This document shows positions 7,811-14,355 of a stretch of 20,695 bases of DNA, piece after piece. The stretch covers positions 1 through 20,695 of IMG/VR virus record IMGVR_UViG_3300033273_000436; one strand, given 5' to 3'. Under the pieces are notes generated by a model that was not told the origin of the DNA, searched no databases, and saw only the letters and a program-made list of their open reading frames with translations. A program made the translations under genes and the position numbers. The stretch comes from a virus. Positions within the stretch are counted from its first letter, which is position 1, and each line of letters begins with the position of its first letter.

Positions 7811-9519
7811 TTACTTTTGAAAAACTTCGTTGGAAAAACTTTCTGAGCACTGGTAACCAGTACATTGAAATGGATCTAACGAAGTCCCCTTCGACTCTCA
7901 TTATTGGATCTAATGGGGCAGGTAAGAGCACAATGTTGGACGCATTGTGCTTTGGTTTGTTTAACAAACCATTTAGGAAGATTAACAAACCTCAACTAGC
8001 AAACACGATCAACGAGAAAGAGTGTCGTGTTGAAGTTGAGTTCAAGATTGGCAGTGTAGAGTACAAAGTTGTCCGTGGGTTGAAACCCGCCGTCTTTGAA
8101 ATCTACCGCAATGGATCTTTGCTAGACCAAGATGCAGCGAATCGAGACTATCAGAAATACCTGGAGCAGAATGTACTTAAACTTAACTTCAAGTCTTTCA
8201 CTCAGGTTGTTATTCTTGGTAGTAGCACTTTTGTGCCTTTTATGCAGTTGCCTGCTGCACATCGAAGAGAAGTTATCGAAGATCTCCTAGACATTCAAGT
8301 CTTCTCTCAGATGAACGCAATCCTCAAGGATCGTGTGAAGGATGCAAAAGAAGAGATTGGCAAGTGCAATCATGAACTTGAACTTGCACAACAAGCAGTA
8401 GACCTCAAGACTGATAACATCAAGAATCTTGAACTGCAGTCCACTGCATACCTTGAGGAAAAGCAACTCAGACTGCAGAAAAATGTTGGTCGCATCTCTG
8501 AGATTGATACTGAAGTGGATTACCTACAAAGTATTGTCACTGAGATGGAACCAAAGGTTGTCAATCTTGATAATCTGAAAGAGCAGTACGATAAACTCAA
8601 AGAGTTTCGTACCAAGATCAAGCAGAACTTAGATCAAACTAAGAAGGGCAAAGAGTTCTACGAGAACAATGATCAGTGCCCCACATGCACTCAGACCATT
8701 GATGAAGTATGGAAGGCAGAGCAGTGTAAATCTTTGACTGAAAAGATTCAAAAATATGACTCAGGTGTGACTGACCTCACTGGTAAGATCAAAGGCATTC
8801 TTGCTAGCATTGATGAGGTTGAAACCGTCAACAAAGATCTTGTTGATAAGCGATACACCATCAACTCTCTTCTGAAAGAACAGTCACGTCTGCAACGTGA
8901 CAACGCTAAACTAGAAGATGAGATCAATGCTGGTTCTCCCAACATTGATAAGGAACGTGAGGTTCTGGATGGATTGCTCATGGCAAGTGAAGAGAAGCAG
9001 TTTGCATGTTCACAAATCAATAAGCGATTCAGTGATCTGAAAGTTGTTGGTAACTTGCTCAAGGACGGTGGCATCAAGACTAAGATCATCAAGAAGTTTG
9101 TTCCTACGATCAACCGCCACATCAACAAGTATCTGCAAGAGATGGACTTCTTCGTGAACTTCACTCTCGATGATGAGTTTAACGAAGTCATCAAGTCTAG
9201 GTTCCGCGATGTCTTCACTTATGCATCTTTCTCTGAAGGGGAGAAGCAGAAGATTGATCTAGCACTGCTGTTCACATGGCGACAGATTGCTAAACTCAAG
9301 AACAGTGTTTCCACAAACCTTCTGATTCTTGATGAAGTATTTGATTCTTCCCTAGATAGTGCAGCAACTGTTGATCTGCTTAAGATCCTCAAAGGACTTC
9401 CACAAAGCACCAACCTTTTTGTCATTTCACACAAAGGTGAAATCCTTCTGGATAAGTTCCACCGCACTGTGAGTTTTGAAAAACCAAATGACTTCTCTAA
9501 GATGACGGAGATTGAATAA
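7807..9519 (+). CDS. gp46: Recombination endonuclease subunit gp46 (Rad50-like)
   Basis: A 570-residue SMC/Rad50-type ATPase; T4 gp46 has 560. It partners gp47 in end resection. Visible parts in order: Walker A GSNGAGKST at residues 34-42, a long coiled-coil arm rich in Glu, Lys, Leu and Gln (about 165-430), the zinc hook CPTC at 291-294 in the middle of the arm, the ABC signature SEGEKQK starting at 476, and Walker B LLILDE at 505-510. All catalytic elements are intact. AGAGGA at 7798-7803 lies upstream of the ATG, which overlaps the DUF3110-like gene stop. The stop overlaps the next gene by one base. Confidence 0.97.
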   Translation: MITFEKLRWKNFLSTGNQYIEMDLTKSPSTLIIGSNGAGKSTMLDALCFGLFNKPFRKINKPQLANTINEKECRVEVEFKIGSVEYKVVRGLKPAVFEIYRNGSLLDQDAANRDYQKYLEQNVLKLNFKSFTQVVILGSSTFVPFMQLPAAHRREVIEDLLDIQVFSQMNAILKDRVKDAKEEIGKCNHELELAQQAVDLKTDNIKNLELQSTAYLEEKQLRLQKNVGRISEIDTEVDYLQSIVTEMEPKVVNLDNLKEQYDKLKEFRTKIKQNLDQTKKGKEFYENNDQCPTCTQTIDEVWKAEQCKSLTEKIQKYDSGVTDLTGKIKGILASIDEVETVNKDLVDKRYTINSLLKEQSRLQRDNAKLEDEINAGSPNIDKEREVLDGLLMASEEKQFACSQINKRFSDLKVVGNLLKDGGIKTKIIKKFVPTINRHINKYLQEMDFFVNFTLDDEFNEVIKSRFRDVFTYASFSEGEKQKIDLALLFTWRQIAKLKNSVSTNLLILDEVFDSSLDSAATVDLLKILKGLPQSTNLFVISHKGEILLDKFHRTVSFEKPNDFSKMTEIE

Positions 9520-9758
9520 TGGACACAGTAGTAATCTATTCAAACGGTAGTCAAGAGTGTGAGCGTATGGGTATGCTGCTTAAAGCACTTGGCGGTGAGT
9601 TCCACGAGTACATGTTAGGTCAGCACTTTACAGAACATCAGTTCCGTGGTGAGTTTGGTCCTGAAGCAACCTACCCACAAGTCTCTATCGGTATGAAACA
9701 TATCGGTAGTATGAAAGAAACCCTGCAGTATATGAGCGACAAAGGATTGTTTGTCTAA
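9519..9758 (+). CDS. Glutaredoxin-like protein lacking the first active-site Cys
   Basis: A 79-residue thioredoxin-fold protein. The start VVIYSNGSQECERMGMLLKA lines up with the glutaredoxin opening (VxIYTKPxCPYCxRAxxLL), and TYPQVSIG at 51-58 is the conserved cis-proline strand. In the usual CPYC motif the first Cys is the nucleophile; here that position is Ser11 and only the second, Cys14, is present (S-Q-E-C). It may therefore bind glutathione or a partner without normal dithiol chemistry. Cyanophage relatives are usually annotated glutaredoxin. It follows gp46 with a one-base overlap. Confidence 0.8.
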   Translation: MDTVVIYSNGSQECERMGMLLKALGGEFHEYMLGQHFTEHQFRGEFGPEATYPQVSIGMKHIGSMKETLQYMSDKGLFV

Positions 9759-9990: not shown

Positions 9991-10176
9991 GTGACTACGC
10001 CGACCACGCCAAACTGGCAACACCACTCTAAGAAGGACAAACACGGCAAGGGCACTTGCAAGGGGAGAATCCGAGCAAGCAAGCAGCGCCTCAGACACTT
10101 GAAAAACCGTCTACACAAGACCTCCGACCTGCGTCGGGGGTCTTATAGTATATGGGTAACCGAGACAGAGACATGA
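9991..10176 (+). CDS. Doubtful small basic ORF
   Basis: A possible 61-residue, very basic protein from a GTG start (first residues TTPTTPNWQHHSKKDKHGKG). The stretch CKGRIRASKQRLRHLKNRLH looks like a genuine basic amphipathic helix and might bind nucleic acid. Against it: the start is GTG, the AGAGGAG at 9966-9972 is 18 bases away, the last third of the ORF is overlaid by a strong hairpin (10117-10144), and its end overlaps the start of the cobT-like gene. It could be real with read-through of the hairpin, or a chance frame in a regulatory leader. Confidence 0.4.
   Translation: MTTPTTPNWQHHSKKDKHGKGTCKGRIRASKQRLRHLKNRLHKTSDLRRGSYSIWVTETET
10117..10144 (+). terminator. Strong hairpin, probable terminator before cobT
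   Basis: A 12-bp stem (AAGACCTCCGAC at 10117-10128 with GTCGGGGGTCTT at 10133-10144, one G-U pair) closed by a four-base loop CTGC. It ends in TCTTAT rather than a long T run, so termination may be partial; it could also act as an RNA stability element or attenuator in front of cobT. The free energy should be high for so short a hairpin. Confidence 0.65.
10144..10154 (+). promoter_or_regulatory. Possible -10 region for the cobT-like gene
   Basis: TATAGTATATG directly after the hairpin contains a -10-like TATAGT (10144-10149). No -35 is visible because that region is the hairpin. If used, transcription would begin near 10156, downstream of the ATG at 10152 but upstream of the ATG at 10173. 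Similar strings occur at 1250 and 14361. Confidence 0.35.
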
Positions 10177-12344
10177 CCACCACTCCCGACATCAAAGGTA
10201 CACTCGCCCGTTTGCTTGCCACCGAGAACCTGATTGTTGAGCACGCTGTATGCGACACTGCATCCTTTGACGTTGACCGTCGTGTGCTCAAGTTGCCCAT
10301 TTGGAAAGATCTGGACAACGATACCTATGACCTGCTCGTCGGTCATGAGGTTGGTCATGCTCTGTTCACTCCTCCCAGCAGTGAGTATGAGGTGCCTGAT
10401 GACATTCCCAAGTCTTACGTCAATGTGACAGAGGATGCTCGTATAGAGAAACACATGAAGACTAAGTTCCCTGGTCTGGGCAAGTCCTTCTATCGTGGTT
10501 ACAACAACCTGCATAACAAAGACTTCTTTGGTATCAGGGATCGTGATCTCAACAAACTCAAACTGATTGACCGCATCAACCTGCACTGCAAGATCGGTGC
10601 CTATGCAATGATCCCCATCAGCGCAGAGGAACAACAGTATCTCGATCTGGTCAAGCAGTCCGAGACCTTTGACGATGCAGTAATCGCTGCTCGCGTACTG
10701 TGGGACCTGCAGAAGCAAGGACGCGAGAAGCAGCAGGACGCACCTGCTGCCAACGACGACTCTGAGAAGGATGGTGTCAGTGGTGAGTCTGAGCAGGAAA
10801 GCAATCCTGTTGAGTATGTCAACGATGACAACGGTCAGCAGTCCGACAGCAACAATGATGATTCTGACGATGCCGATCTGGATATGCCCTCCTACGAGCA
10901 GGGTGGTTTTGATGAGGCAGAGACTGATACCAATCTTACAGACAACCTTGCAAACGCTGCATCCAAGAACTCTTGGGATGAACCTCGCTACGTTGAGATT
11001 GACAATCCCGATCTCAAGCGTGTGATCACTCCTATGAAGTGGGTGCGCGAGAACATTCGTCAGTTCTGGAATCAGATTGATGAAGATCGCAAGAGGTTGG
11101 AGAGCGACTGCCTTGACTTCACCCTTCTGGATGCAGAGTTCAATAAGTTCAACGACTCCACCAACCGTGAGGTGAACTATCTCGTTAAGGAGTTCGAGAT
11201 GAAGAAGTCTGCAGCATCCTATGCACGTCAGACGGTATCCCGCACTGGTGTTCTTGACACTCGTAAAATACATACTTACAAGTTCAATGAAGATCTCTTC
11301 AAGAAGATCACTTCTACCCCTGACGGCAAGAACCATGGTCTGATCTTCATGCTTGACTGGTCTGGTTCTATGTCAGATCACATCTATGAGACCGTTAAGC
11401 AACTGTTGTCTCTTGCATACTTCTGCCGCAAAGTCAACATCCCCTTCACCGTGTACTCCTTTGTGTATGATCATTACCTGACTACACTGAGTCTTGCTGA
11501 TGATGAGGTTTCCCAACCTCTGACTGACAAGCGTGATCACACCATGGTGTTTGATGAGTCATTCCACCTGATTACTCTGCTTGACAGTGAGTCAAACAAG
11601 CGTGACTTCACAGAGTCGGCAAAGCATCTGTTCCGTATCGCATACCAGTATGGTGTTCGCAACTGGGATTATGCTCGTCAGTCTCGTTGGAATCACATTC
11701 CTGTCCCTGGGTTCATGCAGTTGGGTGGCACTCCTCTTAATGAGGCAATCGCTACTCTGCCTGCTCTGATTCCTGCATTTCGTGCTCAGCATGGTGTTGA
11801 GAAACTCAACGTTGTCATCTTGACTGACGGTGAGTCCAACTCCTCCTCTGAGTGGGTGCACAAGGATTACACTCGGACTGATGGTGAGACGGTCAGTACC
11901 ATCTTCTGTTCTGCTATTCGTGACAACACTCGTCTCCGCCATCGTGGCACTGGTCGTGTGTTCCGTGAAACCAGCTGGCACTACCAGTTCACTGATGCAC
12001 TCCTAGACTATGTTCAGGCAGTGTATAAGGATGTCAACATTCTTGGATTCCGTATCGGAACTGCTCGTGAGTGCACCCGTGTGATCACAAACTACCTGGG
12101 TTTCAGCGGCGACAAGTCATTCAAAACCCAAACCGAGTTTAGGAAGAACCGTTCTGTGAGCATCACTGAAACTGGGTATGAAGAGTTGTACTTGATTGCT
12201 TCCTCTGTGCTGGATAACGATGTAGACTTTGATGTGAAGGAGGATGCTACCAAGTCTCAGATCCGTTCTGCATTCCGCAAGACGCTCAAGGGCAAAGCAG
12301 CAAACAAGAAAATCCTTTCGTCGTTCGTTTCCAAGATCACATGA
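10173..12344 (+). CDS. cobT: CobT-like protein: HExxH metalloprotease plus VWA domain
   Basis: A 723-residue protein in two halves. The N-terminal half has HEVGH at 58-62 and, about 25 residues on, NVTEDAR (84-90), the layout of a zinc metalloprotease (two His plus a downstream Glu). Residues about 185-255 are a highly acidic low-complexity linker. The C-terminal half is a von Willebrand A domain with a complete metal-binding MIDAS: DWSGS at 395-399, a downstream Thr in GGTPLNEA, and LTDGES. CobT of aerobic cobaltochelatase and MoxR-partner proteins share this VWA domain, and a CobS/MoxR-type ATPase is encoded nearby at 13252. An in-frame ATG at 10152 would add seven residues; I prefer 10173 because 10152 sits in a possible -10 box. 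True cobalt insertion is doubtful: no CobN is seen, and the protease motif suggests protein remodelling. Confidence 0.85.
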   Translation: MTTTPDIKGTLARLLATENLIVEHAVCDTASFDVDRRVLKLPIWKDLDNDTYDLLVGHEVGHALFTPPSSEYEVPDDIPKSYVNVTEDARIEKHMKTKFPGLGKSFYRGYNNLHNKDFFGIRDRDLNKLKLIDRINLHCKIGAYAMIPISAEEQQYLDLVKQSETFDDAVIAARVLWDLQKQGREKQQDAPAANDDSEKDGVSGESEQESNPVEYVNDDNGQQSDSNNDDSDDADLDMPSYEQGGFDEAETDTNLTDNLANAASKNSWDEPRYVEIDNPDLKRVITPMKWVRENIRQFWNQIDEDRKRLESDCLDFTLLDAEFNKFNDSTNREVNYLVKEFEMKKSAASYARQTVSRTGVLDTRKIHTYKFNEDLFKKITSTPDGKNHGLIFMLDWSGSMSDHIYETVKQLLSLAYFCRKVNIPFTVYSFVYDHYLTTLSLADDEVSQPLTDKRDHTMVFDESFHLITLLDSESNKRDFTESAKHLFRIAYQYGVRNWDYARQSRWNHIPVPGFMQLGGTPLNEAIATLPALIPAFRAQHGVEKLNVVILTDGESNSSSEWVHKDYTRTDGETVSTIFCSAIRDNTRLRHRGTGRVFRETSWHYQFTDALLDYVQAVYKDVNILGFRIGTARECTRVITNYLGFSGDKSFKTQTEFRKNRSVSITETGYEELYLIASSVLDNDVDFDVKEDATKSQIRSAFRKTLKGKAANKKILSSFVSKIT

Positions 12345-12850
12345 ACATCTTTGCAGTTGATGAAGATCCAGTTCTGGCAGCAGGTATGTTGCCAGACAAG
12401 CACATCGTCAAGATGCCATTAGAAACGGCACAGATGTTGGCGATTATCTATAGTCCTCACTATCATGATATCGCCCCCCTTTTCAAAGCGGACGGAACAG
12501 TGTATAATACTAAAAAGGGTGCCTTCAAAAATCATCCTTGTACTAAGTGGGCAGCAGCAACCAAACATAATATCGCTTGGTTAATCGAACATGGTCTAGC
12601 ACTATGTCACGAGTACACCTATCGATACGGTAAGGTTCATGCTTGTCAGAACACAATCGAGATGGCAAACATTATGTGGAGTGGTGCATGTTCTAACAAG
12701 CATTCTCCATTTGTTCGTGCCATGCCCGATGAGTACAAACTTGATACCAGCATTGACACGGTGACTGCGTATCGCATGTATGTTGCTTCAAAACCCTGGG
12801 CAGCGGGCAACTATCTTCGCAAACCTGATCGCAAACCTGATTGGATATGA
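12341..12850 (+). CDS. Conserved phage protein with HxxK/HPC motifs, unknown function
   Basis: A 169-residue protein. It carries a set of polar residues that look catalytic or metal-binding: DKHIVKMPLETAQML near residues 19-33, NHPCTKWAA near 64-72, and LCHEYTYRYGKVHAC near 88-102. The C-terminal part has MPDEYK and an AYRMYVASK segment ending in a Lys/Arg/Pro-rich tail. I recall relatives with the same KMxLExAQxL and HPCxxW motifs in many tailed phages, without a known function. It overlaps cobT and speD by four bases each (ATGA), so it belongs to the same transcript. Confidence 0.75.
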   Translation: MNIFAVDEDPVLAAGMLPDKHIVKMPLETAQMLAIIYSPHYHDIAPLFKADGTVYNTKKGAFKNHPCTKWAAATKHNIAWLIEHGLALCHEYTYRYGKVHACQNTIEMANIMWSGACSNKHSPFVRAMPDEYKLDTSIDTVTAYRMYVASKPWAAGNYLRKPDRKPDWI

Positions 12851-13182
12851 GACACATCCTCTTCACCCTCAAAGGGTGTTCTGCTGTCCTTCTTGATGAC
12901 GAACAATATATTCGGGATGTCATCTATCATGCCAGCGTAAAGTGTGGGTCCACACTTCTTTCGTTGAACTCTCATAAGTTTAATCCTCAAGGTGTAACTT
13001 GTGTTGCCATGTTGGCAGAGAGTCATATTAGTATTCACACTTGGCCAGAGTTAGGCATGGCAGTGTGTGATGTTTTCACCTGTGGTGATCACACCAAACC
13101 CCAGGACGGGGTGGACTACATGTACTCCATGATGCACGCTACCAACGTGGTCAGTCAGGAGTTCAGGAGACCACTTGCCTAA
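12847..13182 (+). CDS. speD: S-adenosylmethionine decarboxylase SpeD
   Basis: A 111-residue pyruvoyl enzyme making decarboxylated SAM, the aminopropyl donor for spermidine synthesis. The signature AESHISIHTWPE lies at residues 57-68: the proenzyme cuts itself between Glu58 and Ser59, and Ser59 becomes the pyruvoyl group; His64 and Cys79 (in DVFTCG) match the processing and catalytic residues. The length fits the short prokaryotic form. I start at the ATG at 12847, which overlaps the previous stop; a TTG two codons earlier is less likely. speD is a known auxiliary gene of cyanophages; polyamines may help DNA packaging or protect host photosystems, which is inference. Confidence 0.95.
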   Translation: MRHILFTLKGCSAVLLDDEQYIRDVIYHASVKCGSTLLSLNSHKFNPQGVTCVAMLAESHISIHTWPELGMAVCDVFTCGDHTKPQDGVDYMYSMMHATNVVSQEFRRPLA

Positions 13183-13188
13183 CTGTCC

Positions 13189-13220
13189 ACTCTGCCCCGA
13201 CTCTGCCCCGACTCTGCCCC
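13189..13220 (+). repeat. Three direct repeats of ACTCTGCCCCG
   Basis: Units at 13189-13199, 13200-13210 and 13211-13220 (the last lacks the final G). The array runs straight into TATAAT at 13221, so it covers where a -35 and upstream activator contacts would be for the cobS promoter. It could be an operator or activator site, or simply slippage in a GC-rich stretch. Confidence 0.85.
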
Positions 13221-13229
13221 TATAATAAG
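13221..13229 (+). promoter_or_regulatory. Probable cobS promoter (-10 TATAAT)
   Basis: A perfect TATAAT at 13221-13226 within TATAATAAG, 23 bases before the cobS ATG. No TTGACA lies 17 bases upstream; instead the tandem CTCTGCCCC repeat is there, so an activator may replace the -35 contact. The same TATAATAAG occurs at 20681. Confidence 0.6.
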
Positions 13230-13251
13230 TGGGTAATCAACAGAACAACAC

Positions 13252-14355
13252 ATGCCTCGCCTTTCTAACGTGACCACTGAAGACCTGATCTCTTACCTGA
13301 CCAGCACCTTTGGTCCTGAAGTTTCGACTGCAAACCTTGTTGCTGCCTCTGATCACTTCGGTGTGTCTTACCCCACCGTTACCAAGCGTCTTGACCAGTA
13401 CAAGTCTGGTCGTGGCAAGTGGGACCTGACTGTTCAAGAAGTCCGTGAGCAACTGGAGCAACAACTCTCCAACCACGTTACCGTACAGGAAAATGCCAAC
13501 TTGATTCCGCAAGAAGATAGTAACTTTGTCCCGTTCGGGAACTTCCGCGATGTTAAGAAGATCATCAAGTCCAACATCTTCTACCCCATATTCATCACTG
13601 GTCTCTCTGGCAACGGTAAGACCTTCTCCGTGGAGCAAGCATGTGCTCAACTGGGTCGTGAACTGATTCGCGTCAACATTACCATCGAAACGGATGAAGA
13701 TGATCTTATTGGCGGTTTCCGTCTGGTTGACGGTAATACTGTTTGGCACAATGGACCTGTTATTGAGGCACTTGAGCGAGGTGCTGTTCTCCTCCTTGAT
13801 GAGATTGACCTCGCAAGCAACAAGATTCTTTGTCTCCAGTCTGTTCTGGAAGGCAAGGGCATTTTCCTGAAGAAGATCGGTCGCTATGTCACTCCTGCTA
13901 GTGGTTTTACTGTGGTCGCTACTGCTAACACTAAAGGTAAGGGGTCGGAAGACGGTCGGTTCGTCGGAACCAACGTCCTCAACGAAGCATTCCTTGAGCG
14001 ATTCCCCCTGACCTTTGAGCAAGAGTATCCCACCCCCTCCGTGGAGAACAAAATGCTCCACAACTATTGCAAAGAACTCAACTGCTGCGAAGAGTCCTTC
14101 ATCAACTCTCTCGTTGCCTGGGCAGACATCATCCGCAAGACCTTCGCTGAAGGTGGTGTTGATGAGGTAATCTCTACCCGCCGTCTGGTGCACATCATCC
14201 GTGCCTTTGCTATCTTCGGTGACCGTCTCAAGGCAATCAAGGTCTGCCTCAACCGTTTCGACGACGAGACCAAACAATCTTTCATCGAACTGTATGATAA
14301 GATTGACTCTGAGGTTGATACTGCCAATGTCCTCACCGATGTTGCACCTTTCTGA
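13252..14355 (+). CDS. cobS: CobS-like AAA+ ATPase (MoxR family)
   Basis: A 367-residue AAA+ ATPase, the gene called cobS in cyanophages. Residues 28-46 look like a helix-turn-helix (ASDHFGVSYPTVTKRL), then a linker, then the ATPase core: Walker A GLSGNGKT at 117-124, Walker B VLLLDEID at 179-186, sensor 1 ATAN at 223-226, and an arginine-finger region near Arg250. CobS is one subunit of aerobic cobaltochelatase, but the same family (MoxR) works with VWA proteins to remodel or mature targets. The nearby VWA/HExxH protein at 10173 is the natural partner. No Shine-Dalgarno is visible, and codons are strongly biased as in gp23. ATPase identity is certain; the cobalamin role is doubtful. Confidence 0.92.
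   Translation: MPRLSNVTTEDLISYLTSTFGPEVSTANLVAASDHFGVSYPTVTKRLDQYKSGRGKWDLTVQEVREQLEQQLSNHVTVQENANLIPQEDSNFVPFGNFRDVKKIIKSNIFYPIFITGLSGNGKTFSVEQACAQLGRELIRVNITIETDEDDLIGGFRLVDGNTVWHNGPVIEALERGAVLLLDEIDLASNKILCLQSVLEGKGIFLKKIGRYVTPASGFTVVATANTKGKGSEDGRFVGTNVLNEAFLERFPLTFEQEYPTPSVENKMLHNYCKELNCCEESFINSLVAWADIIRKTFAEGGVDEVISTRRLVHIIRAFAIFGDRLKAIKVCLNRFDDETKQSFIELYDKIDSEVDTANVLTDVAPF

Follow-up and report, generated by a model that had tools for sequence, protein, structure and literature searches.

Pairs of a MoxR-type AAA+ ATPase and a VWA-domain partner, such as RavA-ViaA, NorQ-NorD and midasin, are protein remodellers. In marine T4-like cyanophages cobS is a core gene, which surveys list with the auxiliary genes for vitamin B12, and three published views bear on it and its partner: Liu et al. 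(2021; PMC8651126) regarded the cyanophage peptidase label as a mistake and proposed hijacking of CobN, a review (PMC5083919) calls cyanophage cobS 'not actually homologous' to bacterial cobS, and Iyer et al. (2021; PMC7824862) described a MoxR-vWA-metallopeptidase pair, for which virion assembly was proposed, in group 2.2 jumbo phages, with cyanophages placed in group 2.1. A limited search of the open-licence literature found no paper joining the chelatase, metallopeptidase-pair and non-homology views, nothing on MoxR, VWA and CobS combined and nothing on cobS in cyanophage transcriptomes. Here we analyse both genes in a virus contig of 20,695 bases, a fragment of a genome (IMG/VR record IMGVR_UViG_3300033273_000436, positions 1 to 20,695; hereafter the window), where a protein with a zincin-like N-terminal domain and a C-terminal VWA domain is encoded upstream of a CobS-like ATPase.

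We lean, with modest confidence, towards the two genes encoding one machine, in which an ATPase ring, a VWA adaptor and a zincin domain would together act on, and clip, a client from the DNA replication or recombination machinery. The original prediction, made from the letters of the window alone, had described a 723-residue protein in which HExxH and a downstream Glu are joined through an acidic linker to a complete VWA metal-ion-dependent adhesion site (MIDAS), followed about 0.9 kb later by a MoxR/CobS-type ATPase; the open reading frames agree, the first lying at 10173-12344 and 908 nucleotides separating it from the second. The features of the two genes are as follows (pLDDT, predicted local distance difference test; HTH, helix-turn-helix).

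10173-12344, + strand: gene for the zincin-VWA protein, 723 residues, start ATG at 10173; PHROG 459 'peptidase', the 'cobT' of Liu et al. (2021)
10173-10742, + strand: N-terminal zincin-like domain, residues 1-190; AlphaFold2 pLDDT 92.5, zincin structural neighbours
10344-10358, + strand: predicted zinc-binding/catalytic motif HEVGH, residues 58-62, on helix 49-65; invariant in 71/71
10431-10448, + strand: EDARIE, residues 87-92, on the next helix (80-98), Glu87 being the candidate third zinc ligand; E87, D88, R90 and E92 invariant
10743-10910, + strand: acidic, probably disordered linker, residues 191-246; pLDDT <50
11334-12341, + strand: VWA domain, midasin/NorD-like, residues 388-723; VIA-align Z 16.3 and 15.6
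11355-11369, + strand: MIDAS motif DWSGS, residues 395-399 (with T520 and D552); D, S and S invariant
13252-14355, + strand: gene for the CobS-like MoxR-type AAA+ ATPase, 367 residues; PF07728 E-value 2.4e-17, CbbQ_C; PDB CobS E-value 4e-21
13324-13416, + strand: weak HTH-like stretch at the ATPase N-terminus, residues 25-55; below the Pfam cut-off, conserved in part (46 sequences)
13600-13623, + strand: Walker A motif GLSGNGKT, residues 117-124; at least 90% conserved

Conservation was counted across 71 non-identical IMG/VR relatives of the zincin-VWA protein. Both metal sites are invariant or nearly so: H58, E59, H62, T66, N84, E87, D88, R90 and E92 are identical in all 71, amongst them Glu59, which is needed for catalysis but not for structure, and so are D395, S397, S399 and D552 of the MIDAS, position 520 being Thr in 70 and Ser in one. 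HExxH arises in 2.4% of shuffles of the 723-residue protein, and the HExxH, E87 and the MIDAS are all retained in Ochrobactrum phage OC at 21% identity. Structure prediction of the N-terminal half, one of the checks attached to the original prediction, gave a confident fold for residues 1-190 modelled alone (all models are of single chains), and the gluzincin signature, HExxH plus a Glu on the following helix, is present by sequence and predicted secondary structure. The structural neighbours of this domain are nearly all zincins, which take up most of the top 50 rows, with Z scores of 5.9 for ZMPSTE24, 5.7 for ArdC, 5.6 for selecase and 5.4 for abylysin, and with jannalysin, BlaR1, IrrE/PprI, BepA, SprT and Wss1 also amongst them. 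Foldseek with the N-domain returned no E-value below 0.03, and in a comparison with viral models the domain matched 'CobT'/VWFA proteins of other phages and of haloarchaeal viruses.

The full-length model (pLDDT 78.5) drew essentially only VWA matches from Foldseek, and the best matches of its VWA half are midasin (MIDAS domain, Z 16.3) and NorD (Z 15.6). The ATPase belongs to the AAA_5/CbbQ type and carries Walker motifs, so that the locus combines a MoxR-type ATPase with a partner that has a VWA fold and a complete MIDAS. No relevant match to the VWA protein came from PDB sequence searches with the protein or its profile, no NCBIfam model matched it, and it has no match to the CobT Pfam domains PF06213 and PF11775 or to DUF2201_N and DUF2201 (PF13203/PF09967), PF11775 being without a match anywhere in the window; PF06213 was matched weakly by 2 of 37 relatives (best E-value 0.006). 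Apart from midasin, CobS is the nearest solved relative of the phage ATPase, but the ATPase scores only 71.9 bits against the CobS equivalog TIGR01650, which has a cut-off of 558.55 bits. In two ATPase-core trees, which are unrooted and contain some long branches, cellular CobS proteins partnered by a CobT that has no HExxH group together in a single clade (95/99 once long branches are left out), whilst cyanophage CobS falls outside it, alongside an Ochrobactrum phage protein. Some SSU5-type ATPases have a zinc-finger-like N-terminus. AAA matches from Staphylococcus phages were set aside, the next gene having neither VWA nor HExxH.

In Ochrobactrum, Salmonella, Rhizobium, Roseobacter, Zobellviridae, Vibrio, Tsukamurella and Gordonia phages, in plasmids and in some bacterial genomes, divergent proteins of the CobT type retain HExxH, most of them together with a downstream ED-x-R-[IV]-E-like motif (the gene of Pseudoalteromonas phage XG4 is excluded from the comparison). 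Cellular CobT carries an EQARVE-type motif but has HExxH in 0 of 80 loci (mostly Hyphomicrobiales), and five further divergent cellular CobT proteins lack HExxH too; an HExxH in one cellular CobT-like protein (L207, residue 196) was discounted because of its place downstream of the Glu motif and its failure to align. By hhalign the cyanophage N-domain matches the zincin-bearing mobile-element CobT proteins with 98.8% probability, and these in turn match the cellular CobT N-domain weakly (41%, E-value 3e-4). SSU5 CobT matches both PF06213 and PF11775, and matches to SSU5-type CobT genes were found in 252 of 5,426 E. coli genomes, every one plasmid-borne, a count of gene matches and not of HExxH. 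Scanning viral contigs with the OC and MJW CobT proteins yielded no relatives. Compared in this way, the cyanophage VWA partner looks to carry an intact zinc-protease site that was lost in the true B12 enzymes, and 'peptidase' (PHROG 459) may be a better label for it than 'cobT'.

None of 18 complete records, from phages or plasmids that carry genes of the CobS/CobT type (one being a Staphylococcus phage that has the ATPase alone), yielded a CobN-family protein, although a host CobN could serve; amongst the controls an E. coli genome gave no match and Synechococcus elongatus did, with a family that also covers Mg-chelatase subunits. Since those 18 records lack CobN, the CobS clade is separate and cellular CobT is without HExxH, the label 'CobS, cobalamin synthesis' probably misnames the phage ATPase.

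The pair was never seen split, which bears out the co-occurrence across cyanophages on which the original prediction had been made to depend. By tblastn of phage records, with the ATPase counted at a coverage of at least 80%, the VWA protein occurs in 463 records and the ATPase in 457, with equal counts for both genes in Synechococcus phages (365), records named 'Cyanophage' (61) and Prochlorococcus phages (24). In IMG/VR the ATPase was found in 65 of 80 VWA loci, always downstream and on the same strand, and the remaining 15 stop within 782 nucleotides of the VWA gene, so that linkage holds in 65/65 loci long enough to show it. The zincin-VWA/ATPase pair is a core gene pair, present in essentially every T4-like ocean cyanophage.

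Gene order in the window is that of T4-like cyanophages: a gp23-like capsid gene, UvsW, gp47, gp46, the zincin-VWA and CobS-like genes, gp45 and gp44. Upstream gp46 is present in each of the 57 loci whose sequence extends to it, and downstream gp45 in 29 of 31; in other phages the pair is neighboured by genes for DNA polymerase III alpha (dnaE), primase, ligase or polymerase. This placement in replication/recombination modules, taken with the partly conserved HTH-like N-terminus of cyanophage CobS and the zinc-finger-like one of some SSU5-type ATPases, speaks weakly for a client in DNA metabolism rather than in the virion. Between the two genes of the window lie speD and a denV-like pyrimidine dimer glycosylase gene (12341-12850); a denV-like gene occupies that position in 16 of 65 loci, and one lies near cobST in Roseobacter phage CRP-810 too. 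A small glutaredoxin/thioredoxin-like gene (9519-9758) precedes the pair. On an IncC-like conjugative plasmid (Aeromonas pA; L085:256-7674) a CobS-like AAA gene, bet, an exonuclease gene, DUF3150 and a zincin-VWA gene form one cluster, and the ATPase of this plasmid groups in the tree with a chromosomal zincin-type pair.

The codon adaptation index relative to gp23 is 0.52 for the VWA gene and 0.535 for the CobS gene, compared with 0.27-0.44 for most genes, 0.73 for gp23 itself, 0.58 for gp45 and 0.53 for gp44; the bias described in the original prediction as gp23-like is therefore real in both genes, but its closest match is gp45/gp44. The TATAnTA...GGGTAA pattern occurs twice in the whole window, each time 29-31 nucleotides upstream of the VWA or ATPase start:

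10144-10159, + strand: promoter-like TATAGTATATGGGTAA preceding the VWA gene, one of just two such sites in the window
13221-13236, + strand: promoter-like TATAATAAGTGGGTAA preceding the ATPase gene, the second such site; relatives have TATAAT-like sites

The upstream regions 10104-10172 and 13181-13251 share a layout, in which a GTCYAC box is followed first by a hairpin or repeat and then by this pattern, and relatives have the box, a terminator hairpin and a TATAAT-like site ahead of both genes. These sequences are consistent with two separate strong promoters, one for each gene. The T4-type late promoter TATAAATA was looked for near the VWA and ATPase genes and not found.

Within the explanation that we prefer, in which zinc binding, cleavage, coupling to ATP and the identity of the client are inferred, the MoxR-type ATPase most likely forms a ring and acts on a bound protein by pulling or remodelling it. 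The adaptor would be the VWA protein, its MIDAS docking on the ATPase, gripping the client or both, as in NorQ-NorD and midasin, and the zincin domain, tethered by the flexible acidic linker, would then clip the client or a loop exposed in it. Most likely this client is a phage DNA replication or recombination protein, or a host protein bound there, rather than a corrin chelatase. Several observations weigh against this explanation. The zincin Z scores are only 4-6, under the level that the comparison tool calls safe; unrelated genes abound in early and middle phage clusters, which makes gene location a weak guide to the target; and our literature search found no experiment on the pair. The HExxH is also lost and the pair kept in Pseudomonas phage nickie, Stenotrophomonas phage ANB28 and Acinetobacter plasmid pRBH2-4. 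Proteolysis therefore cannot be what every such pair does and, judged from these relatives, remodelling without cutting is viable. Degraded forms of the motif beside a kept ATPase neighbour read DSEISK (L221:5010-7094), DREVST (L222:5007-6992) and DQEVAK (L086:3004-4926). The original prediction of a remodelling or proteolytic pair instead of a cobalt chelatase thus survives in part: the MoxR AAA+/VWA pairing, the intact zincin motif and the non-chelatase character are supported (by the zincin structural neighbours, the NorD/midasin-like VWA, the strict co-occurrence, the lack of CobN in related complete records and the separate CobS clade), with cleavage or maturation of a phage or host protein as a putative activity. 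These three relatives, like the CobT-type proteins that keep a CobS partner without HExxH, would fit a MoxR-VWA remodeller that acts as a chaperone only, its zincin fold serving for docking or structure, whether or not it holds zinc, as appears to be the case in cellular CobT; for the cyanophages we consider this rather unlikely, as all four catalytic or ligand residues are invariant in 71/71, including the catalytic Glu59, which a purely structural role would not require.

A role in virion assembly or maturation, with the pair remodelling and processing head or tail proteins, has a published analogy in the DUF2201-type pair and in the MoxR-VWA tail system of Acidianus two-tailed virus (Iyer et al., 2021; PMC7824862) and would suit codon usage biased towards that of the capsid gene. 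We nevertheless think it unlikely, given that the genes lie in replication/recombination modules away from structural genes in several lineages, that the bias best matches gp45/gp44, that neither gene has the late promoter, and that the two cyanophage-core virion proteins named by proteomics are T4-GC 15 and 190, whereas the S-PM2 pair is annotated T4-GC 146 and 150. The published alternative (PMC8651126), in which the phage-encoded CobS and CobT stand in for the motor subunits of a cobaltochelatase and use host CobN to make extra cobalamin for nucleotide synthesis, draws on the kinship with solved CobS and on the CobN-family protein of S. elongatus. Such a host protein makes hijacking possible in cyanobacteria, though it is not the simplest reading, and we regard it as improbable: the ATPase falls far short of the CobS equivalog cut-off, the VWA protein has no NCBIfam match, cellular CobS is a separate clade, related pairs reside on elements of E. 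coli, Salmonella and Klebsiella although the E. coli control genome lacks a CobN match, the conserved zincin site has no obvious role in chelation, and the homology of cyanophage cobS to bacterial cobS has itself been doubted (PMC5083919). A more speculative version of the remodeller, which we hold to be fairly improbable, is a DNA-associated ATP-driven protease in which the HTH-bearing CobS-like ring would recruit the zincin-VWA protein to replicating phage DNA, where proteins bound or crosslinked would be stripped off or cut; on this version cellular CobST would have descended from such a mobile-element remodeller through loss of the zinc site.

Were cobS indeed half of a remodeller or protease, ecological claims about vitamin B12 would need revising, and cellular CobT would be a zincin relative minus its metal site. 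Phage-plasmids, conjugative plasmids and phages with many different hosts share this architecture, which would point to a widespread uncharacterised machine.

Amongst known systems, NorQ-NorD, CbbQ-CbbO and midasin share with the phage pair the VWA fold (Z 13-16), the AAA+ subfamily and the adaptor-plus-ring architecture; we know of no intact zincin site in their adaptors. Minigluzincins, IrrE, SprT/Wss1 and ArdC are zincin-fold neighbours of residues 1-190 and are not known to have a VWA or a MoxR partner. CobNST has in common with the pair an AAA+ ATPase and an acidic-linker VWA partner, the N-domain of its CobT being linked to the phage one via the zincin-bearing mobile-element CobT proteins, and the phage pair differs in having no CobN found alongside, an intact HExxH and a CobS outside the cellular clade. 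The pair of phage Atu_ph07 (ASV44728/ASV44729), an example of the group 2.2 jumbo phage pairs of Iyer et al. (2021), which profile A3, run without a positive control, did not recover, also sets a VWA protein with an N-terminal metallopeptidase-like domain beside a MoxR ATPase near DNA polymerase genes, but its ASV44728 has DUF2201_N/DUF2201 (PF13203/PF09967) and lacks HExxH. By domain content, the cyanophage pair is a second, CobT-like branch beside this DUF2201-type pair.

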